Of a DNA stretch of 19,303 bases, positions 1,590 to 19,257 are shown in pieces. Source of the DNA: Methanospirillum hungatei (GTDB lineage Archaea; Halobacteriota; Methanomicrobia; Methanomicrobiales; Methanospirillaceae); NCBI GenBank assembly GCA_003251955.1, contig QKDV01000144.1:1-19303 (forward strand). Reading direction: 5' to 3'. The notes below the pieces were generated by a model. It made no database searches and was not told the DNA's origin. It saw only the letters and a list, made by a program, of their open reading frames with translations. The position numbers and the translations under genes are program-made. Positions within the stretch are counted from its first letter, which is position 1; the number at the start of each line of letters is the position of its first letter.

Positions 1590-1910
1590 TTATTTTACCC
1601 TGCTCACCGGACCTTTACGTTGCTCTCCTCTCATCACTGCCCTGACACGTGCAACCGGGCTTGCATAGGATATCCCGTCGATATCCATGTACAATCCCTT
1701 ACCACTATCAGACAGTCTGACAATACCATCTTTTGGCCCAGATATTGGTCCATCACCAAGGCCCAGGAGCACGGATGTAAGTACAACTCCCCGGATTGAG
1801 AATCTCCCGATATCATCGATAAACACCAGCAGAAACTCCCCGTCACGAATTATTCTACCACAATGTTCAAACCCGCTATCCACCTTAACGCTCTCAACAA
1901 ATATACTCAT
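1590..1910 (-). CDS. Unknown 106-residue protein, last gene of the primase operon
   Basis: I do not recognise this protein. It is soluble, without signal peptide or membrane helix. The sequence alternates short hydrophobic stretches (FLLVFIDDIG, VVLTSVLLGLG) with glycines and ends in a basic tail, which suggests a small beta-rich fold. I chose the ATG at 1910 over the in-frame TTG at 1913. The ATG shares one base with the stop of the upstream Cys-rich gene (TGATG), and GGAG lies about eight bases upstream. The coupling and the terminator just downstream make it very likely to be a real operon member. It may act with the primase or in host interaction, but no function can be assigned. Confidence 0.6.
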   Translation of the reverse strand: MSIFVESVKVDSGFEHCGRIIRDGEFLLVFIDDIGRFSIRGVVLTSVLLGLGDGPISGPKDGIVRLSDSGKGLYMDIDGISYASPVARVRAVMRGEQRKGPVSRVK

Positions 1911-2125
1911 CAAACATCTCTCCTGAGTATCTCTGTTTCATCTTCCATAGGGCAGGAATCCATGATTCCCGGCTGTCTGCCCGTACGTGTGCATATACAT
2001 TTCTTGCGAATCTTTTGTTTCAGACCTGCTGTGTTAACCCAATGGCGTGTCAGATACGAACAGCCTTTCCTGATACACCATGTAGTATTTGGTCGTGTCA
2101 TGATAATCCAGCACCATCCCTCCAT
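1910..2125 (-). CDS. Small Cys-rich protein downstream of the primase
   Basis: A 71-residue protein, rich in Cys, Arg and Lys. After C5, two Cys lie in CIRKGC (about 17-22), two in KKCIC (about 42-45), and one in DSCPMEDE (about 57-64). The arrangement suggests a small metal-binding domain, possibly nucleic-acid binding, but I cannot place it in a family. The ATG at 2125 is preceded by a strong ribosome binding site (GGGAGGAGG on the minus strand, about eight bases upstream). The gene starts 27 bp after the primase stop and ends in TGATG overlap with the next gene. The strong site and the coupling are better evidence that it is translated than the sequence itself. Confidence 0.58.
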   Translation of the reverse strand: MEGWCWIIMTRPNTTWCIRKGCSYLTRHWVNTAGLKQKIRKKCICTRTGRQPGIMDSCPMEDETEILRRDV

Positions 2126-2152
2126 ACTCCCGTCCTCCTCCCACTAACCTGA

Positions 2153-5100
2153 TCACGGAGGGCCGGTTATATCAGAGGATTCTCTATCTGCAGACTCTGC
2201 AGACCTGCGATAACATGACTCACAAAGACTTGTCCTACAATCCTGATCAATCCAGACTGCAGGCTGGAGATTACAGAGACTGCATCGTCCCGAAGGGGCA
2301 GTACGTTTGACCATCCTGGCTATCTCAACGGTTCCGGGCAGGATCACATGAGAAGCGACGATCCTTGAAACTGCCCTGGCATAGCATGACCCACAGAGAG
2401 TCAATGGCTCTTTCGATGGTTTTTCCCTCCTTTTCTGCTCCTTCTCCTGGAACCTTGTTTTTCGCTTCCCACAGACACTACATCTCCGTCGGTCAGGACC
2501 ACCGGTAACCCTGACAAAATTCTCCGGTCTTATTGAGGAGAGTGATACGCCCGTTGTCACCTCCCTGGCGCCAAACCCCTCTTCTTCACTGGCAGATGAC
2601 TCTTCGTGAGCGTCAGGTAGAGTAGGTACATCAGGTACATCTGGCACATGTGAGCCAGAACCTGTATCAGAAGGTGAATCATCAGGATGATCACCGTCAG
2701 GATCAGGCCCGTCATCAGAATCTGATGATTCATTCGCAAGCCAGACAGATCCTCCCTTAACCCAGGCTCTGTACAGTTCATTATCCCAGAGATAGGCCTT
2801 CGTTCTTTTCATCGTGGTATATCCCTCGTCACCAATGGAGACCGTGCGGTCAAAGAACGAGATCGCCGGGCATTTTTCAAGAATGCCTGAATATGTCTTC
2901 CCGTGAGAGCGGTACCCGTGAATCAGTTTGGTGATAGAACTGTTTGTCCAGCCTGTTGCCTTCTGCAGTTCACTTGTTGTGATCTCTGTATGATCTGCAG
3001 AAGCAATCGTCTCGATAAGGGCAGATTCACGACGGGTAAGTTTCGTTGCCTGTCCTCCGGTCTCGCCATTCAGGGCGACAAAGAGCCGTGCAGCCTGGGT
3101 GAAATCCTCTTCGGTTGCGATGATACACGAAATTCCTCCTGATTCTATCATCGTCCGCTGCTGCTGACAGAGTGCAGCGTTTGTCCTGATCAGATCGAGC
3201 AGCATATCCGGATTACGCCGGTTCTCTGCCGACTGGAACCTGATCCTCCGTGCAAACGGAATCACGACAAAAACCTCTTTCAGTTCATTCCAGATCTGTC
3301 TGCAGATCAGGATATCCTCGCTCACCTGTGCCTGTGAATCAGGCAGTTCTTCTGCACAGGCAAGAGTCCGGTCAAGCACCCTCTGATCCTGTTCATCAGA
3401 GTCATCGATCCAGCAGGTGAGCATCCGGTTAAAGACCTGATCATCACCGGCCCCTTCTACCTTTGCAATCCACCAGACACACCGCTGTGGGATCGTGCAG
3501 ATCTGTGGTTTTCTCTCTGTATTGACAGTCCTGTATGGAAACGGCTTTTGAAACGAGGTAGTCACTCCTTTCAAAATCTCCTGCATCTGCTCTGAAAGGC
3601 TGACATCATCGAGCGTGATCACTGTTCCGGGGATAAGATCGTCCATGTAAAAGAGTGCCTTGTCACTCATACGCCCGTCGAGCCGGTATGCTGAAGGAAT
3701 CAGGGATTTCATGGTCTCTATGGCATGGGACTTGCCTTTCCCTGACTCACCGGTGATAGAGACATGAAGCCCTCTGCTGTTGATCACCGTTCTTGATGCA
3801 AGCGAATGGACGAGACACTCGGCAACGGTCTGGTCTCCTTCATGATATCTCCCAAATGTTGAAAGAAGAGTATCAAGTGGATTGCCTTGTGCAAGGATCT
3901 CACGGGCTTGAGAGAGTATCTTGTCTTTTTCATCTATCTTCCCGTCATCTGCTTCTGATGGGACGGGTACTTGATCAGATCCGGTTGCATCTGGATCTGT
4001 TGAAACAGGATCTCTGGCCGTCCCGGGATTATTCTTCTCTCTTTGCCCGTCTGTATTTTTCCCGGGATTTGATTTGCTACGTGAAGATCCTTCATACATG
4101 GCCCGCAATTCAGACCATCGTTGTCTCCCGCTTCCGCATGAAGTATGGTGACATCCGGCGAAGATGGCACCGTTTGGGAGTTGTAATGCAAAAGCACCAT
4201 CCTTATGATCAGAAGAAAAGGGACACTGTTCAAGCGAATAGAGGGTTCCTCCCTTGTACGGTTTCGCGTTGGATGCAATGCTATGGTCCCTGAGCCATGA
4301 GCCGAGATCAAGGATTTTTCCTGATTTAAATCCCCTCTTTGAAACATTATCTGAACAATATTCTGAGTCTGTCTTTGAAACACTCTCTGATTCAGGTCCA
4401 GACCCGCCATGTTCATGTAACGAGAATTCCCCCAAAAGGGAATGCATCTGCTCATAACTGACAATAGTTTGTGTCTGTGGTGCTGTGATGATCTGCGATC
4501 TCCGGTGTGGCCGGTCAACAACATTGTCACCTTTCCTTGCGTATGTCCCGTATACCTTCCAGATCCGTCCTGCATTGAAGTTCGCGGTATCAACCCTGCA
4601 TGCAGAAGTTGAGAAACGGCAGTCAAGAAGTTCAAGAAATGATCGAACCAGATCCCGACTGGCATCATCATTTGGGAGATCGATTGCATAGAGCAGGTGT
4701 GCTCCGTTGCCGGAATCGGCGATGACGGGATCAGGCCAGCCGTTATCAGTTAGCCATGATCTGATAGTTCTGGCAAGAGAGAGGGCACTCTCATGTTCAG
4801 AATCAGATGATGAAACTCCTGATATCCTGACCGGATCGATGTCTATTGGAAGCCACCTTCGCCTGATGATATCGCTATCTGCAGTAGTTGCTTCTGATCT
4901 TGTGAGCCTTGTCTTGATCCGGTTGGCCCTTCGTGCGAGCAGAACCGGGTTTACTTCATTCAGGGTGAGATAAATCCCGGAAATGCGCAGGTCTTCTTCA
5001 AGCAGGAGGATATCATCGGCAGCCTTCTCATGGTTGTTATAATATCCTGAACCGATACCGTCATGACCGAGGGTCCTGATCTCAAATACCTGGCCCTTGG

Positions 5101-5155
5101 AAGCAAGGAGCCTGAGACATGCAAGAACTCCGGCTTTGCCGACTTCACCAGCCAT
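2153..5155 (-). CDS. Primase-polymerase/helicase-type replication protein with C-terminal zinc ribbons
   Basis: A 1000-residue multidomain replication protein of the kind found on archaeal plasmids and viruses. Residues about 20-240 form an archaeo-eukaryotic primase (AEP) domain: the catalytic DID is D105/D107 in LPIDIDP, H153 lies in SGNGAHLLY, and RIWKVYGTYARKG (197-209) is the third conserved block. A CHC-type zinc site follows (C311, H317, C335, C340). After an acidic linker comes a P-loop ATPase: Walker A GESGKGKS (469-476) and Walker B TVITLDDVS (511-519). A winged-helix-like segment lies at about 704-760. A very acidic, probably disordered stretch (808-860) leads to two CxxC...CxxC ribbons (C892/C895/C921/C924 and C958/C961/C978/C981). 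By family it should prime or copy DNA and unwind it during replication of the element. The start at 5155 has only a weak GGGG site upstream, so a slightly different start is possible. All key residues are present. Confidence 0.85.
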   Translation of the reverse strand: MAGEVGKAGVLACLRLLASKGQVFEIRTLGHDGIGSGYYNNHEKAADDILLLEEDLRISGIYLTLNEVNPVLLARRANRIKTRLTRSEATTADSDIIRRRWLPIDIDPVRISGVSSSDSEHESALSLARTIRSWLTDNGWPDPVIADSGNGAHLLYAIDLPNDDASRDLVRSFLELLDCRFSTSACRVDTANFNAGRIWKVYGTYARKGDNVVDRPHRRSQIITAPQTQTIVSYEQMHSLLGEFSLHEHGGSGPESESVSKTDSEYCSDNVSKRGFKSGKILDLGSWLRDHSIASNAKPYKGGTLYSLEQCPFSSDHKDGAFALQLPNGAIFAGCHHTSCGSGRQRWSELRAMYEGSSRSKSNPGKNTDGQREKNNPGTARDPVSTDPDATGSDQVPVPSEADDGKIDEKDKILSQAREILAQGNPLDTLLSTFGRYHEGDQTVAECLVHSLASRTVINSRGLHVSITGESGKGKSHAIETMKSLIPSAYRLDGRMSDKALFYMDDLIPGTVITLDDVSLSEQMQEILKGVTTSFQKPFPYRTVNTERKPQICTIPQRCVWWIAKVEGAGDDQVFNRMLTCWIDDSDEQDQRVLDRTLACAEELPDSQAQVSEDILICRQIWNELKEVFVVIPFARRIRFQSAENRRNPDMLLDLIRTNAALCQQQRTMIESGGISCIIATEEDFTQAARLFVALNGETGGQATKLTRRESALIETIASADHTEITTSELQKATGWTNSSITKLIHGYRSHGKTYSGILEKCPAISFFDRTVSIGDEGYTTMKRTKAYLWDNELYRAWVKGGSVWLANESSDSDDGPDPDGDHPDDSPSDTGSGSHVPDVPDVPTLPDAHEESSASEEEGFGAREVTTGVSLSSIRPENFVRVTGGPDRRRCSVCGKRKTRFQEKEQKRREKPSKEPLTLCGSCYARAVSRIVASHVILPGTVEIARMVKRTAPSGRCSLCNLQPAVWIDQDCRTSLCESCYRRSAESADRESSDITGPP

Positions 5156-5217
5156 AATAGCCCCAGTGAATCGGGAAGATCAGGCTGCTTTCTGAAGGCC
5201 TGACTACTCCTGCCTGC

Positions 5218-5571
5218 TCAGTCACCGGCATCTTCCGGACCTCGCAGTCTGACCGCTCCGCCTATACAGATCCGGTACCTGTTCCAGTAGTCTTTATGCC
5301 TGACCCAGTACTGAATCTCGCCAGGATATGCACCTGAACGTTGCAACTGTGAGAGGGCATCAATATCCTCCTGCAGATGAAATCTGCCGCGATAGGATCT
5401 GATGCAGAGGAAGAGCGTTTCAAACCGGTTCCACGCGATAAACCTGATCTGGCCGGGTTTGTTTGTGGTACGCAGGAGAACCTTTGCTACTTCATAACCC
5501 TGAGTCTGGAGGATAGCTTTCGCAGCATATCCTGCAGTATAACAGGTATGATACTCAGCGCTTCGATTCAT
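5218..5571 (-). CDS. PDDEXK-like (Holliday-resolvase-type fold) protein, probably without nuclease activity
   Basis: A 117-residue protein. Its layout resembles small archaeal PDDEXK proteins such as Hjc: an N-terminal helix (YTAGYAAKAIL, about 11-21), GYEVAKVLL, a strand pair around PGQIRFIAWN (39-48) and a core strand LFLCIRSYRG (53-62). The positions that should carry the acidic residues read Q41 and C56/R58 in place of D and ExK, so the classical metal site is missing. The fold assignment is tentative. The ATG at 5571 directly follows the TAG of the upstream gene (5572-5574), so the two are coupled. It sits 62 bp before the primase gene, which points to a DNA-binding role in replication or recombination. 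Confidence 0.55.
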   Translation of the reverse strand: MNRSAEYHTCYTAGYAAKAILQTQGYEVAKVLLRTTNKPGQIRFIAWNRFETLFLCIRSYRGRFHLQEDIDALSQLQRSGAYPGEIQYWVRHKDYWNRYRICIGGAVRLRGPEDAGD

Positions 5572-5760
5572 CTATGCCACCAACCATACTCTCCCCATTT
5601 TGATATCTGGAAGATCTCCTGATATATCCTGGATAGCGGGAGAGTTACCGCTATGGGGGAGCGAAGATATGATTAAAAACCCAGACGAGAAACCCTGATT
5701 ACTCCCCTCTGTGATCTGCCGCCAAGCTTGTTCATCTGACGGGGGGTACTGTGTCTTCAT
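5572..5760 (-). CDS. Unknown 62-residue protein coupled to the PDDEXK-like gene
   Basis: I do not recognise this short protein. Its N-terminal half is polar (MKTQYPPSDEQAWRQITEG), the middle carries a modest hydrophobic patch (GFLIISSLP) and there is no clear membrane helix. Support for translation comes from an AGAGG/GGCGG ribosome binding site six or so bases upstream of the ATG, and from its stop codon touching the start of the next gene (TAGATG). It may serve mainly as a leader for the downstream operon genes. Confidence 0.48.
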   Translation of the reverse strand: MKTQYPPSDEQAWRQITEGSNQGFSSGFLIISSLPHSGNSPAIQDISGDLPDIKMGRVWLVA

Positions 5761-5782
5761 CTACCGCCTCTTGTTCATAGTA

Positions 5783-5986
5783 TCACTGATTCTGCCTGAA
5801 TTCACTGGGTTGTTTCACTGTTTTTGATTGTGATGATTCAGCAGTTAAAAAAATGGTAATATCAGTACCTTTTAAAATGTATTGGTTTTCCCTTTGGATT
5901 TCTGGGTTTGATACGTAGAAATGTTTATCTTTGAGCAGATCACTGTCGATGAGTTCTGGAATTTTCCCTGGAGGCTGGGTACGCAT
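5783..5986 (-). CDS. Possible 67-residue first gene of the minus-strand operon
   Basis: The frame reads like a plausible soluble protein (for example VSNPEIQRENQYILKGTDI) but matches nothing I know. No ribosome binding site precedes the ATG at 5986. A TATA-like GATATATC on the minus strand (6005-6012) lies about 22 bp upstream, which would fit a leaderless transcript starting at or near the ATG. It ends 22 bp before the next gene, in the same orientation. It could instead be untranslated leader. Confidence 0.38.
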   Translation of the reverse strand: MRTQPPGKIPELIDSDLLKDKHFYVSNPEIQRENQYILKGTDITIFLTAESSQSKTVKQPSEFRQNQ

Positions 5987-6004
5987 GCATGTTGTTACAA
6001 ATTT

Positions 6005-6012
6005 GATATATC
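6005..6012 (-). promoter_or_regulatory. Candidate TATA box for the minus-strand replication operon
   Basis: GATATATC is centred about 22 bp upstream of the 5986 ATG. It is the best TATA-like element in the divergent gap for the leftward operon. A leaderless start is inferred from the spacing. Confidence 0.3.
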
Positions 6013-6108
6013 GTATTATCAGACTCTGATCAGATCGGGTGTGGCTGTTTGCACTAATTTTCTAAAATGGCCGGTAGTTCTCATCTTGTTTCCCTCCCCA
6101 TGCTGAAC

Positions 6109-6118
6109 CTATTATAAC
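6109..6118 (+). promoter_or_regulatory. Candidate TATA box for the plus-strand three-gene operon
   Basis: CTATTATAAC centred near 6114 would place a transcription start close to 6138-6140. That coincides with the left arm of the hairpin at 6137-6157. The box is imperfect and the call depends on position. Confidence 0.35.
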
Positions 6119-6136
6119 CAGGCTACTAATGAGATA

Positions 6137-6157
6137 ATGTCGCAATTTACGCGACAT
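6137..6157 (+). promoter_or_regulatory. Perfect hairpin immediately before the ribosome binding site
   Basis: ATGTCGC (6137-6143) and GCGACAT (6151-6157) are perfect 7-bp arms around the 7-nt loop AATTTAC. The GGGGG ribosome binding site starts at the very next base, with the chosen start at 6168. It could be an operator, a stabilising 5' stem or a translational control site. The right arm also contains the upstream in-frame ATG at 6156. Confidence 0.45.
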
Positions 6158-6167
6158 GGGGGAAAAT

Positions 6168-6677
6168 ATGGGAGATTTCACACAGAAGAGTGTTGTAAAG
6201 TCTGCGGTGAGAAAACTTGCAACACCGATTGCTGACTATACCGCATTTAGTACACTCATCCAGGATGTGCTGGATAGCAATCCGTGGGGATGCACAGCGT
6301 ACGAGTCTGCAGGGATAGCAAAGCCTGCGGTTGAGAAGAGCAAAGAAGCGTACGCAGCAACAATCGTGTACGAGAATGCAGAGGCAAAGACCGTTGGGAG
6401 CATTCCGGTAAGGGGACCGACGATGGCAGCTGTTAACACTGCTGTTACCCAGATCACGGGTATTGCTGCAATCACCACCGGTATGGGAGACGGAGTGAGT
6501 GCATCACGTGATTCGTCAGAGGATTCGTTCAGCTGCACCATCAAGGCTCATGCAAGTAACGGTGAACTCTATTCGGTCACGTTCAAGAGAGATAGTGTCA
6601 CCCTTTCAAGTTATGAGGCAGATTCTATCAGAACCGGTCTTGAGTCCTGGGCTGATATGGTTGCCATCCTGGCTTAA
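6168..6677 (+). CDS. Unknown Ala/Thr/Ser-rich 169-residue protein, possible structural subunit
   Basis: I do not recognise this protein. It lacks a signal peptide and membrane helix, starts with a basic helix (QKSVVKSAVRKLA), has a small-residue-rich middle (AAVNTAVTQITGIAAITTGMG, about 86-106) and ends in a beta-like region with LYSVTFKRDSVTLSSYE. Size and composition would suit a repeating structural subunit, but that is a guess from context. I chose the ATG at 6168 over 6156 because GGGGGA sits just upstream of it. The next gene uses the same GGGGGGA-type site, whereas 6156 has none and lies in a hairpin arm. It is the first gene of a plus-strand set with a secreted and a membrane protein. 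Confidence 0.7.
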   Translation: MGDFTQKSVVKSAVRKLATPIADYTAFSTLIQDVLDSNPWGCTAYESAGIAKPAVEKSKEAYAATIVYENAEAKTVGSIPVRGPTMAAVNTAVTQITGIAAITTGMGDGVSASRDSSEDSFSCTIKAHASNGELYSVTFKRDSVTLSSYEADSIRTGLESWADMVAILA

Positions 6678-6706
6678 CTCTCTCTTTTTTCATATCCGGG
6701 GGGAAT

Positions 6707-7255
6707 ATGAAGAGAGGGTTTGTAATTTTGGGGATGGTCTGCATTCTGTTTGCAGCCCTGGCCGGTGCTGATTATATCGCTACCACCATCACCACTGATG
6801 GTTCTGCATTCCTCTCCGCATCAGGATCTGATACCAACGGCTCATTTGCAGAGCGGGCAATGGCAGTGGATACAGCCCGTCTGACACGAACGATATCAGG
6901 CGATGAACCCGGGATTGATCTGGTGGTTTCAGGGTCCGGTCCGGTTCTGGTTTCAGATTATGCTTCAGGTCTGATACAGGAGTCAGAGAGCAGGAATCAT
7001 TGTTTGTTCCTGGACGAGGATGGTGAGAGGTCTCTTGGTGAGACCTCGGTGTATTCATCCGGGATATTTAACGGGGCTGAATATGCTGTCTCACGGGCTA
7101 TTGGTTCTGTTCTGTCCGGAGGAACCCGGGTAAATGGATCAGGACTTCTTGCGTTTGGGTTTCAGGGGTTAGGAAATAGGTCTCTGCAGAGCAGGGGATT
7201 TGTATCTGGTAATCTGTCTGTTCAGGATCTCTTCAGGTATGGAGGAAGAGAATGA
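6707..7255 (+). CDS. Secreted 182-residue protein of unknown function
   Basis: The first 21 residues form a classic Sec signal peptide: MKRG, a hydrophobic core (FVILGMVCILFAALA), then a likely cleavage site after Gly-Ala at about 20-21. The mature part is rich in Ser, Gly and Asn, has several N-x-S/T sites (NGS, NRS, NLS) and reads as beta-strand-rich, as expected of a surface or extracellular protein. The start has a GGGGGG ribosome binding site (6698-6703), and a T-rich run precedes it in the 29-bp gap. The stop overlaps the next start as ATGA. No family is recognised; a cell-surface or virion spike role is only suggested by context. Confidence 0.72.
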   Translation: MKRGFVILGMVCILFAALAGADYIATTITTDGSAFLSASGSDTNGSFAERAMAVDTARLTRTISGDEPGIDLVVSGSGPVLVSDYASGLIQESESRNHCLFLDEDGERSLGETSVYSSGIFNGAEYAVSRAIGSVLSGGTRVNGSGLLAFGFQGLGNRSLQSRGFVSGNLSVQDLFRYGGRE

Positions 7256-7494
7256 TTGCTGAAGTGATCGCTGGTATTAGCACCGGTTTAGCGGTTCTGA
7301 ACGGTTGTGTAGTGTATCTCATGTATAAGGAGTACATGAGGCTCGCCGATGCTTCACTTGAATTTGCAGGGATTGTTATTGAGTCGATCAGGGAAGAGAA
7401 TGGGGAGATTAAGGTTGAACCTATGGCTCTTGCGGGTCTCTCATTTGATCATATGATCCAACTTTCCAGTCTGTGGAAGTGGATCAAGAGGTAG
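7252..7494 (+). CDS. Small single-span membrane protein
   Basis: An 80-residue protein with one N-terminal hydrophobic helix (about 5-24, VIAGISTGLAVLNGCVVYLMY), followed by a charged helix and a C-terminal segment ending in LWKWIKR. The ATG overlaps the stop of the secreted protein gene (ATGA), and GGAGG (7241-7245) lies six bases upstream, so expression should be tightly linked. It may anchor or assist the secreted protein at the membrane. The family is not recognised. Confidence 0.72.
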   Translation: MIAEVIAGISTGLAVLNGCVVYLMYKEYMRLADASLEFAGIVIESIREENGEIKVEPMALAGLSFDHMIQLSSLWKWIKR

Positions 7495-15839: not shown

Positions 15840-15929
15840 TGTAGCAACCTTCTGAACTGTTGAATCAAATTCTATGGGAGTTTAAACGAATTGTCGAATC
15901 TGTGAAGTATTTAATCGGTGTAAATAGAT

Positions 15930-16006
15930 AGAGGATACCAGGAAGAGGTTAGCACTTTTAACCGATCGAATCCCTGATATTTGTTGACCAATATCCTCTC
16001 TCAATA
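15930..16006. repeat. Possible degenerate fourth copy of the structured repeat
   Basis: GGTTA (15947-15951) and TAACC (15959-15963) form a stem where hairpin 2 would be. A TCTCAATA motif (15999-16006) begins 35 nt after it, the same spacing as in the three clear units. The second heptamer and hairpin 1 are not evident, and the loop is seven nt instead of five. An outer 8-bp stem (AGAGGATA at 15930-15937 with TATCCTCT at 15992-15999) is not shared with the other units. Confidence 0.3.
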
Positions 16007-16134
16007 ATTGTATCAAATGATAGCAGAAGGATCCAACCCTTGTTAATGGCTGGCTAAAAAAAGAGTTACTGATGATAAATGCCCGTTTATCTGTAGTAAA
16101 ATACTACGGTCAGTGATGTCAGCTTATGAATTAT

Positions 16135-16274
16135 TCCCTGTCCAACAGCAGACAGGGATCGGATCTCAAAAAGTCTGGATGATTATTCCTAGGTGTGTTT
16201 TATGAGAGGTGGTGCGCACCTCAAATACTAATCTCTCTTCATATGCCATATTGATTTTCTCAATGATCTCAATA
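16135..16274 (-). ncRNA. Structured repeat unit A (candidate RNA)
   Basis: Plus-strand layout: hairpin 1 TCCCTGTC/GACAGGGA (16135-16142 and 16151-16158, 8-nt loop), 47 nt, hairpin 2 GAGGTG/CACCTC (16206-16211 and 16217-16222, 5-nt loop), 35 nt, then TCTCAAT (16258-16264) and TCTCAATA (16267-16274). On the preferred minus strand the order reverses: the TATTGAGA/ATTGAGA pair comes first and hairpin 1 last. No frame in the unit is shared with units B and C. The role is unknown; a strand assignment argument is given under findings. Confidence 0.45.
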
Positions 16275-16357
16275 GGTAATATTCATCCTATTGAAACAGT
16301 TCATATCGATTCCGGGTATATTCAATCTGATGAAAACTCGTAGAGCGTAAGAAAAGT

Positions 16358-16480
16358 ATCCCCATTACTGAGATGGGGATCTGTTGATGCGTTAGAGTAA
16401 CAGTAAGTATCAAGGTGTATAAAACACCCTTAGTCTCTTCGTCAACGCCAGACATATACGTTATCTCAATCTTCTCAATA
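16358..16480 (-). ncRNA. Structured repeat unit B (candidate RNA)
   Basis: Hairpin 1 is ATCCCCAT/ATGGGGAT (16358-16365 and 16373-16380, 7-nt loop). Hairpin 2 is GGTGT/ACACC (16414-16418 and 16424-16428, 5-nt loop). The heptamers are TCTCAAT (16464-16470) and TCTCAATA (16473-16480). The arm sequences differ from units A and C, yet pairing and spacing (33 and 35 nt) are kept. On the minus strand hairpin 2 extends by a G-U and an A-U pair, and hairpin 1 is followed by ACTTTTC. A 78-codon minus-strand frame covers the unit, but its codons are not conserved in A or C. Confidence 0.45.
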
Positions 16481-16550
16481 GAAGATAGATGTCGATAATA
16501 GTAATCTGGCCTGATAGTAGGCAAAAAAGTTCAATGAAAACCCGATAAAA

Positions 16551-16684
16551 GATTCCTGTCCGACAGAAAAGACAGGAATCCAAATTGTAGTTGTACTGTA
16601 CTATGCAGTATTTATCGAGGTGGAGCACACCTCAAAAAATATTGAATTCCAACTACCTTATTGCCTTTCTCAATTCTCTCAATA
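16551..16684 (-). ncRNA. Structured repeat unit C (candidate RNA)
   Basis: Hairpin 1 is GATTCCTGTC/GACAGGAATC, a perfect 10-bp stem (16551-16560 and 16571-16580, 10-nt loop). Hairpin 2 is GAGGTG/CACCTC (16617-16622 and 16628-16633, 5-nt loop). The heptamers are TCTCAAT (16668-16674) and TCTCAATA (16677-16684), with spacings of 36 and 34 nt. On the minus strand the unit begins 44 bp after the chemoreceptor stop. A TTATATA box touches its 5' end, and hairpin 1 is followed directly by TTTT, as in an intrinsic-type terminator. Confidence 0.48.
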
Positions 16685-16728: not shown

Positions 16729-19257
16729 TCAGACCTTAAATTGAGTCATCTTTTCAGATACACCATCAACAATACCAACAATATTTGCAACCACCTTGTT
16801 TATCTGTGACAGGGCTGATGAGATCTCCTTTGAAGCACCTGATACTGAAACAGTCTCATCAGTGATGGTATGCGTGAGATCTGCTATCTCCTGTATGCTG
16901 GATGTTACCTCTTCAACCGATGCAGCCTGTTCTTCAGAGGCTGATGCAACCTCTGTGATGTGGCTGCTGATATCCTCAATTTTTTGTGCGATATCGTCAA
17001 ATGCCTGGACCGTCTGCTCAAGAGACTGTCTTCCTTCAAGGACAACCTTGTTTGATTCAGCCATCGCTTCAGTTGCAGACCGGGATTTCTGCTGTAGTGA
17101 TGAGATCAGATCTGCAATGTTCTCGGCTGATTTTCTGGAATCCTGTGCAAGCGACTTGACTTCAGATGCCACAACAGCAAAACCCCGCCCGGCATCTCCG
17201 GCACGGGCAGCCTCTATAGCTGCATTCAATGCAAGGAGATTTGTTTGACTTGCAATATCAGAAATTAACTTGACAATCTTTCCAATCTCAATCATCTGCT
17301 CATTGATATCCGAAATGATCGCACCAATATGTTCTGATGAAGTAGAGATTGCATTCATCGAAGTTACTGAGTTATGTGCGAGTCCGATCCCCTCCTTAGC
17401 CGAAGAGGTCGCCTCCTGTGAAAGGTTAGCAACCTCGTCAGCCTTCATCGATACCGAACTTACAACCTGAACCATATCATTCATGGCACTGAGGATCTGT
17501 TTTGTACTTGAGTCACTCTGCCCGGCCTTATTTCTGATATCAGACATTAATGATGTGACTTCACCAGATCCGGCAGTGATCTCTTCGATACTTGCATTTG
17601 CCTCTTCAGTATTCTTTTTAAGATCCTGTATGTTTTCTATCGTATGTGACAGTACCGAGGAAACCTCTTCCCCGATATGATCGAGTACTTTTTGAAATGA
17701 GATCCAGTCTCCCTGGATTGCCTGCTTGTTTGAAAACCGTGCAGTTAAGTTATATGCTGCATACTCATCAGAAACCCGCATCGCTTCTTTTAACGGAATA
17801 GTGATAGTATCAAGCGTCGTGTTCATTCCCTTAATGATCGTTGCATAGTCTCCCTGGTGAGCGGTGGGATCAGCACGGTATGAGAGATGCCCTGATGCGG
17901 CCTCTTGTGAGAATTTTATCGAATCATCAACGAGATGGCTGATCGCAAGGCGGGCTTTATCAAGGGATTTTTGTATGATGGTAAAACTCTCGTATGCTGA
18001 CTTTGTATACTCATCAGAAGGAATTACTGATGTTGTAAATGTTGTCTTTCCAGATGCAAGATTTCCAATATTTTCTGATACTATCTGTACCGATTTTTCA
18101 AGATAATCAACAAGTCTTTTGACTCCGGTCATATCGATATAAAATGTTATAATCTGTGTAACCGTGTTATTGGTATCAAGAACCGGGACATACCTGTACT
18201 CCAGGTTTTTTGGCCCGGTTCCAAAATCAACCACGAGTTCTCCACGTTCCGGTTTTCCTGATCTGATAGTCTCAGAAAATGAAGGGCCGTTTCGTGATAT
18301 GACATTAAAATCACGGGTGCTCCTGGAGGTTATTGTCTGGATTGGCAGCTCTGATATTGATGAAAATGCCTGGTTTGTTGAGAGTATTGTACCATCTAAT
18401 GCCATGGTAATTATGCCGGCCGGACATTCATCAATTAAAAGTTGAGACTGATTGAGCCTGTTGACAAGCTCTGTCTGGTCAATCATGATATGATAGACCT
18501 GAACAACATCACGATTGTGGTTGAGAACCGGTATGTACGAGTAATTAAGATGCTTTACACCAGACTTAAAGTGGCATACAAATTTTCCTGAAACCAGCGT
18601 TTTTAATCTGATCGCATCCTGAATTGTCTCTCCTTCCCGGGAGATTACCTTGTGATCTTTGAACTCTATCTCCTTAGCCTCTTCTTTAGAATGCCCGGTT
18701 ATTTCACAATATGCCGGATTCACATGGAGTATTTCTGCTTTAGGAGATAATGTGAGGATTGAGAAGGGGGCGTTCTGAATAAGAGATGACATGGCATTAA
18801 TGCGATTGACTACTTCACTCTGGTCAATCACAGTAGTCATCAGGCAGGTCTGCCCCTCGTACTCTATTCGGTTGAGTGTAACATTTGCTGGAAAAATCTC
18901 CCCGGTGAGCTTCTTGTGATCCCATCTGAAATTTACTGTCTCTCCTGAAAATGCCCGCTTAATCATCTCCTGTGAGAGAGTCGCTGAGCTTTTTCCGTCA
19001 CGCTGAACAGGAGGTGACAGAATTCCCGGTGGTTTCCCGATAATATCACCTTTTGTCCGGGCTTCAAACATCTCAATAGTCTTTCTGTTGCAATCAATAA
19101 ACATCCCTTCTGGGCTTACAATCTGAATTGCGACCGGAGTTACATCCAGAATGCTTTGAAGTGTCTTCAAATCAGTAGTTGTGATAATTGAAGGAGTCAG
19201 AACCTGTGTGTTATCTCGTGTTCCCTGCTCTCCTAATGTAACGGATTTTACAATCAT
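16729..19257 (-). CDS. Soluble PAS-domain methyl-accepting chemotaxis protein
   Basis: An 842-residue chemoreceptor without membrane helices, so it should work in the cytoplasm. Three PAS domains lie at about 30-148, 152-265 and 268-380. A helical HAMP-like linker region follows (about 385-540), and then the MCP signalling domain (about 540-835). The highly conserved hairpin tip is intact: [20 protein letters not shown] (668-687) followed by [15 protein letters not shown] (690-704), the CheA/CheW contact site. Glu/Gln- and Ala/Ser-rich helices on both sides are typical methylation regions. It probably senses redox state or a small molecule through PAS and feeds the archaellum chemotaxis pathway. 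No clear ribosome binding site precedes the ATG at 19257, so a leaderless transcript or another start is possible. No che genes are in the window, so its pathway genes must be elsewhere. Confidence 0.92.

Follow-up and report, generated by a model that had tools for sequence, protein, structure and literature searches.

Methanospirillum is a model syntrophic methanogen. A 19,303-nt stretch of Methanospirillum hungatei DNA, referred to here in its whole length as the window, contains three tandem repeat units next to a chemoreceptor gene, and the question is what these units encode. Sequence inspection places them at 16136–16684 with a period of about 205 bp, and a repeat finder agrees, giving unit spacings of 206 and 204 bp. 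On the plus strand each unit comprises hairpin 1, hairpin 2 and the box TCTCAATnnTCTCAATA, a double heptamer. The two hairpins are separated by 46, 31 (33 if counted to the inner GGTGT) and 36 nt in units 1, 2 and 3, respectively. The core of hairpin 2 is followed after 35, 35 and 34 nt by the box, in which the heptamer starts lie 9 bp apart. All hairpins and boxes of the three-unit architecture proposed in a preliminary description of this DNA were found at about the spacings given there, and both the distance of 34–35 nt between hairpin 2 and box and the 9-bp heptamer offset can be read directly from the sequence. Hairpin 2 of unit 2 is longer than described there, with 7 bp, one of them G-U, if read on the minus strand. 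The coordinates are collected in Table 1.

Table 1. Features of the array and of neighbouring genes in the window; strands of the array features are the predicted ones
Feature	Position	Strand	Basis
Unit 3 upstream box (TATTGAGAGAATTGAGA on the minus strand)	16668–16684	−	exact pattern
Unit 3 hairpin 2 (5′ hairpin in the predicted RNA)	16617–16633	−	repeat finder, folding, covariation
Unit 3 linker segment, putatively antisense to the sheath-family Shine-Dalgarno/start region	16583–16598	−	pattern searches, pairing compared with shuffles
Unit 3 hairpin 1 (3′ hairpin in the predicted RNA)	16551–16580	−	repeat finder, folding, covariation
Unit 2 upstream box	16464–16480	−	exact pattern, orthologue conservation
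Unit 2 hairpin 2	16412–16431	−	folding, covariation
Unit 2 linker segment, putative antisense match to GTTGATGC..AGAGTA in the sheath-family leader	16382–16399	−	pairing compared with shuffles
Unit 2 hairpin 1	16358–16380	−	sequence, folding, covariation
Unit 1 upstream box	16258–16274	−	exact pattern, orthologue conservation
Unit 1 hairpin 2	16206–16222	−	repeat finder, folding, covariation
Unit 1 conserved linker segment (TCATAAAACACACC on the minus strand)	16192–16205	−	rpsJ ribosome-binding site as a hint of the target
Unit 1 hairpin 1	16136–16159	−	sequence, folding, covariation
Chemoreceptor (MCP) gene adjoining the array	16729–19257	−	Pfam MCPsignal
Gene for a 1000-aa protein	2153–5155	−	no PHROGs match; Pfam matches below cut-off only
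Gene for a 117-aa protein	5218–5571	−	part of the block at 1590–7494
Gene for a 173-aa protein	6156–6677	+	part of the block at 1590–7494
Gene for a 182-aa protein	6707–7255	+	part of the block at 1590–7494
Gene for an 80-aa protein	7252–7494	+	part of the block at 1590–7494

An exact search for the 17-bp box pattern in the 1.64-Mb assembly of the same genome (67% complete) gives three sites, each of them inside the array; allowing up to one mismatch gives five sites, the extra two of which lie elsewhere. Searched alone in 61 relatives, the box gave ten exact sites, three in the present array and two in an array of the genome G004. The others are one site each at G004:C2, in G017 and in G042, and two in G005; by eye, the G004:C2 site and both G005 sites resemble coding sequence. 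A nested inverted repeat (AGAGGATA..TATCCTCT enclosing GGTTA..TAACC), followed by CTCTCAATAA, was noticed at 15925–16007 and may represent a degenerate fourth unit.

When 61 genomes were searched at the DNA level, the array region turned up in its own genome and in two other Methanospirillum genomes, G007 and G004. G007 contains the complete array, with 73% identity over query bases 12–615. G004 contains three units at C4, a partial array at C9 and two stray units at C8:91517 and C8:84284. The same chemoreceptor gene adjoins the array in all three genomes; the C-terminal 323 residues of its product share 89% identity with G007 and 81% with G004, and the next-best genus genome among the matches listed reaches 57% across the whole length and 59% for a portion of it. 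Two covariance models were built, R1 from seven units and R2 from three type-2 units, and each recovered a unit that had been held out: R1 found C8:91517 (74.6 bits, E 1.4e-8) and R2 found the type-2 unit C8:84284 (48.7 bits, E 1.6e-6). R2 gave 17 further rows at E 0.4–5, including two weak matches inside the present array; the others were taken as chance. With stricter filters, R1 matched four of 232 Methanomicrobiales genomes. One of the four, the match in G009 (E 0.07), looks like coding sequence on inspection by eye and was not counted as an array. Thus, three of the 232 genomes carry units, all of them from one genus, in which three of 12 genomes have the array. The covariance-model search suggested in the preliminary description did uncover more copies, all of them in a single genus of the Methanomicrobiales. 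In total, 12 units (three here and nine from relatives) are available, and they fall into three orthologous types. The type-3 pattern had no match in the viral and genome contig collections searched, from which near relatives of this genome may have been left out.

The 12 units retain their base pairs through changes on both sides of the stems, as structured non-coding RNAs do. On the minus strand 11 of the 12 hairpin cores outperform their shuffles in folding by over 2 s.d. (z −2.35 to −5.82), the exception being the G004 C9 copy (z −0.85). The plus-strand values range from −0.8 to −7.66, and since the z-scores of the two strands are similar, they carry no strand information. In every core (12/12) the predicted minus-strand fold has hairpin 2 at the 5′ side and hairpin 1 at the 3′ side, with a short, weak helix predicted in the linker of 11 of the 12 units. 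In hairpin 1, seven of ten pairs show changes on both sides across the 12 units, a number reached by one of 500 shuffles, and 14 cells are changed on both sides compared with 3.7 in shuffles (0/500 as high). In hairpin 2, ten cells are changed on both sides compared with 4.8 in shuffles (0/500 as high), and four of eight pairs are affected, which 36 of 500 shuffles also reach. Sliding the pairing partners by 1–3 columns abolishes the signal. In these counts the arms were aligned by hand and the 12 units are related sequences, which inflates such numbers; a tool-made alignment of seven units has four of 16 pairs changed on both sides (12/500 shuffles as high). The covariation claimed in the preliminary description is thus borne out for hairpin 1, which exceeds both the shuffled and the slid controls. 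For hairpin 2 it holds on most measures, but not on the number of pairs changed. A small-protein reading of the units found no support: in g4_1 the one frame that begins plausibly is interrupted by a stop, and inspection by eye shows no reading frame that is conserved.

The compensatory stem changes also bear on the possibility that the units act as DNA, namely as binding sites, terminators or an integration/recombination site tied to a multicopy element, with the hairpins forming cruciforms. The window contains a gene block at 1590–7494 around a gene for a 1000-aa protein (Table 1). Relatives of this protein occur in 11 of 12 genus genomes with up to 24 matches per genome, some of which are pieces of one copy, and the block looks like a multicopy mobile element. 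Genes of this element abut the G007 array and the partial array at G004 C9, and one of the G004 C8 units lies about 550 bp from such a gene; moreover, the heptamers of the box form a direct repeat of a kind that a regulator could recognise. The array at G004 C4, however, has no element gene in the first 27 kb of its 65.8-kb contig, and both the compensatory changes and the conserved linkers complementary to an mRNA leader (see below) argue against a DNA element, which we regard as highly improbable. A reading as integron attC sites was considered and set aside.

An Rfam search gave no match at the gathering score within the window; the best sub-threshold match was ncr952, which scored 16.3 bits where the gathering score is 100. 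The homologues, the covariation and the absence from Rfam together support the earlier proposal of a candidate undescribed RNA family. Among the literature matches listed, no title concerned a Methanospirillum small or non-coding RNA or a comparable archaeal antisense RNA. We conclude that the array probably encodes a cluster of sibling small RNAs that is undescribed and restricted to one genus; these RNAs would be transcribed from the minus strand and would add a family absent from Rfam.

The reading direction follows less directly. Hairpin 2 keeps 94.8% of its pairs on the minus strand and 86.2% on the plus strand; the values for hairpin 1 are 91.8% and 90.9%, and this hairpin is strand-neutral. 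Averaged over nine pairwise comparisons, orthologues share 81% identity in the box region; the value drops to 54% across the 34-nt spacer, is 69% from hairpin 2 through hairpin 1, and falls to 40% and 41% in the flanks. The 26-nt box region of type 3 is identical to 88–96% among the three genomes. These conservation boundaries and the constant distance of 34–35 nt are explained by a gene on the minus strand that is preceded by an upstream element and ends at hairpin 1. The 15 nt after hairpin 1 are slightly enriched in T (6.8/15 compared with 6.1 after hairpin 2 on the plus strand). A matrix derived from 24 tRNA predictions was too weak to confirm a TATA box. We are fairly confident that the units are to be read on the minus strand in the order box, hairpin 2, linker and hairpin 1, with the box as their putative promoter element. 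The direction assumed in the preliminary description, with hairpin 1 first, is probably the reverse of the true one, as the pairing in hairpin 2 favours the minus strand.

A possible function is suggested by the linkers. The type-3 linker is antisense to AATTGTAGGAGTACTG, a site whose end lies 2 nt upstream of the ATG of one and the same gene in each of the three genomes. In 2.0 Mb of G007, this site is the best non-self match of the segment from the G007 linker (15/16), and for the version in the window it is one of three places at 14. Whole-genome matches to the type-3 segment with up to two mismatches are few, and some lie at other sites. A reversed control pattern gives one to three matches per genome, which makes the number of matches unremarkable; what is remarkable is their shared place. 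A weak point of the duplex is that the GGA of the Shine-Dalgarno sequence faces two mismatches at its centre, or one in G007. The type-2 linker (TACTCT..GCATCAAC) is complementary, in antisense orientation, to GTTGATGC..AGAGTATCAG in the leader, approximately 23–42 nt before the same ATG. Its complement, GTTGATGC.{0,6}AGAGTA, occurs at three sites in 2.0 Mb of G007, every one in the start region of a paralogue (three of 1886 start regions). The type-2 linker of G007 itself does not match this strict leader pattern.

The product of the gene shared by the three genomes has 281–287 aa (the G007 copy is P0001), with no Pfam and no PDB match. Its relatives from M. stamsii and a M. hungatei isolate have 358–388 aa and 58–60% identity, start with MKFGY and contain two cysteines 14 apart. 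The features of these relatives fit the MspA sheath family as characterised in the parts of PMC6242892 drawn on here, and the account of the sheath family in the corresponding parts of PMC11576556 also fits the target. In common with the MspA/SH proteins as portrayed there, the target has a short signal-like start, and its relatives have the two mid-protein cysteines. The target is presumed to be an MspA/SH sheath-family protein, a tentative assignment made by likeness to these family descriptions. The leader motif is present upstream of five of the ten relatives examined, including those of M. stamsii and the M. hungatei isolate.

Pairing was compared with shuffled linkers. Against the three G007 leaders, all eight linkers of types 2 and 3 pair more strongly than their shuffles, no more than 13 of 1000 of which reach the same strength; none of the three type-1 linkers does so (the c9 linker was left out). 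A reverse-complement control was unremarkable in six of the eight linkers and significant in two (g4_3, 6 of 1000; c8_2, 1 of 1000), because the leader is partly self-complementary. Among 1070 start regions in 1.2 Mb of G007, the main target ranks 5, 2, 2 and 1 for the type-3 linkers, 6, 6, 22 and 5 for type 2, and 1063, 983 and 876 for type 1; a paralogue ranks 1, 1, 3 and 4 for type 2. The complementarity of types 2 and 3 to the start region thus exceeds chance, as would be expected of trans-acting antisense RNAs. It is nevertheless conceivable that the small RNA genes are genuine and that their fit to the sheath leader arose by chance or is secondary to their main function. The search that yielded the targets was post hoc, the sheath leader is not matched by type 1, and several unrelated start regions pair equally strongly with single linkers. 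We consider this quite unlikely, as two unit types fit adjacent parts of one leader, that of the same gene in three genomes.

The main rival places the function on the plus strand, where the units would be sense mimics of the sheath leader that titrate its binding protein or RNA and so raise sheath expression. The plus strand does contain leader-like sequence and its hairpins fold about as well. In type 3 the GGA of the Shine-Dalgarno sequence is replaced, which would suit a decoy that must avoid ribosomes. However, the loss of hairpin 2 pairs on this strand (86.2% kept, compared with 94.8%), the position of the conserved box, where it could not serve as a promoter for the plus strand, and the lack of conservation beyond hairpin 1 (41%) all argue against such a decoy, which we consider unlikely.

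On balance, we favour the view, as somewhat more probable than the sum of its alternatives, that the array comprises three paralogous minus-strand small RNA genes, of which units 2 and 3 repress the translation of sheath proteins and unit 1 targets another mRNA. Each gene would have the shared upstream element TATTGAGAnnATTGAGA about 34 nt ahead of the 5′ hairpin (hairpin 2), which would be followed by a linker of 30–45 nt without strong structure and by the 3′ hairpin (hairpin 1). In units 2 and 3, the linkers would serve as antisense seeds. Unit 2 would pair with the conserved leader hairpin of the sheath-family mRNAs, opening or covering it, and unit 3 would cover their Shine-Dalgarno/start region. 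Ribosome binding would be blocked and the synthesis of sheath protein lowered. Unit 1 has the common frame and a different seed, which suggests a different target.

For unit 1, the start region of rpsJ offers a hint. The type-1 segment has four non-self matches with up to one mismatch in the three genomes, and rpsJ is the one among them that was recognised by eye as a start region. With the G007 type-1 query, five other places in 2.0 Mb of G007 match as well as rpsJ; for the other three type-1 queries, rpsJ is not among the best ten matches in this sequence. When the full type-1 linkers were paired with rpsJ, 20, 11, 0 and 10 of 1000 shuffles were as strong, and 156, 99, 14 and 83 of 1886 start regions paired at least as strongly as rpsJ. 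For an 18-nt piece of the linker alone these numbers fall to 2, 2, 1 and 1 of 1886, a result that gives only a hint of the rpsJ ribosome-binding site as the target, because the piece was chosen after the rpsJ match. More speculatively, the siblings might form a combinatorial sheath switch. Two of them would bind next to each other on a single leader, where one would open the hairpin and the other cover the Shine-Dalgarno sequence, and the third would provide a link to ribosome synthesis via rpsJ. Since several sheath paralogues have a common leader, the cluster would then set the amount or the variant of the sheath. This reading is tentative, and we would sooner doubt it than adopt it. Mutual complementarity between type-1 and type-2 units was also seen in the repeat-finder output.

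Clusters of sibling small RNAs are known from bacteria, where Qrr, OmrA/B and LhrC each consist of related RNAs with a common frame and common targets. The array would resemble them in comprising several related small RNAs with a common frame and shared targets. The bacterial siblings mostly share their seed, whereas each type of the array has its own. Among archaeal trans-acting small RNAs, sRNA154 of Methanosarcina mazei contains two stem-loops and acts by masking a ribosome-binding site, and masking of ribosome-binding sites has been proposed for sRNA41 of the same species, as outlined in the relevant passages of PMC5867862. The RNAs of the array are predicted to be similar in kind, but their putative seeds lie in the linker between the hairpins, and they form three tandem siblings, two of which would be aimed at one leader. 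At the level of Rfam matches, no family relation to sRNA154 or sRNA41 was found. The passages on sheath and envelope in PMC6242892, PMC11641113 and PMC11576556 that were drawn on treat the proteins and their many paralogues and describe no RNA regulator; to judge from them, the control of archaeal amyloid-like sheath synthesis seems to be an open question. The target predicted here at the level of base pairs makes this question directly testable.

The sheath-family leader itself may form a hairpin (GTTGATGC..AGAGTATCAGC) just before the Shine-Dalgarno sequence, and this is kept across paralogues and species. The motif was located at L247, L248, L250, L241 and L242 and at three G007 genes. It is also present in species without a detected array, so that its conservation is not due to the RNAs of the array, and it is possible that it constitutes a regulatory leader in its own right.

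At the other end of the window, two small adjacent genes lie at 174–906. The second has a weak PHROGs match, and by eye we take the two to resemble a HEPN/nucleotidyltransferase pair.
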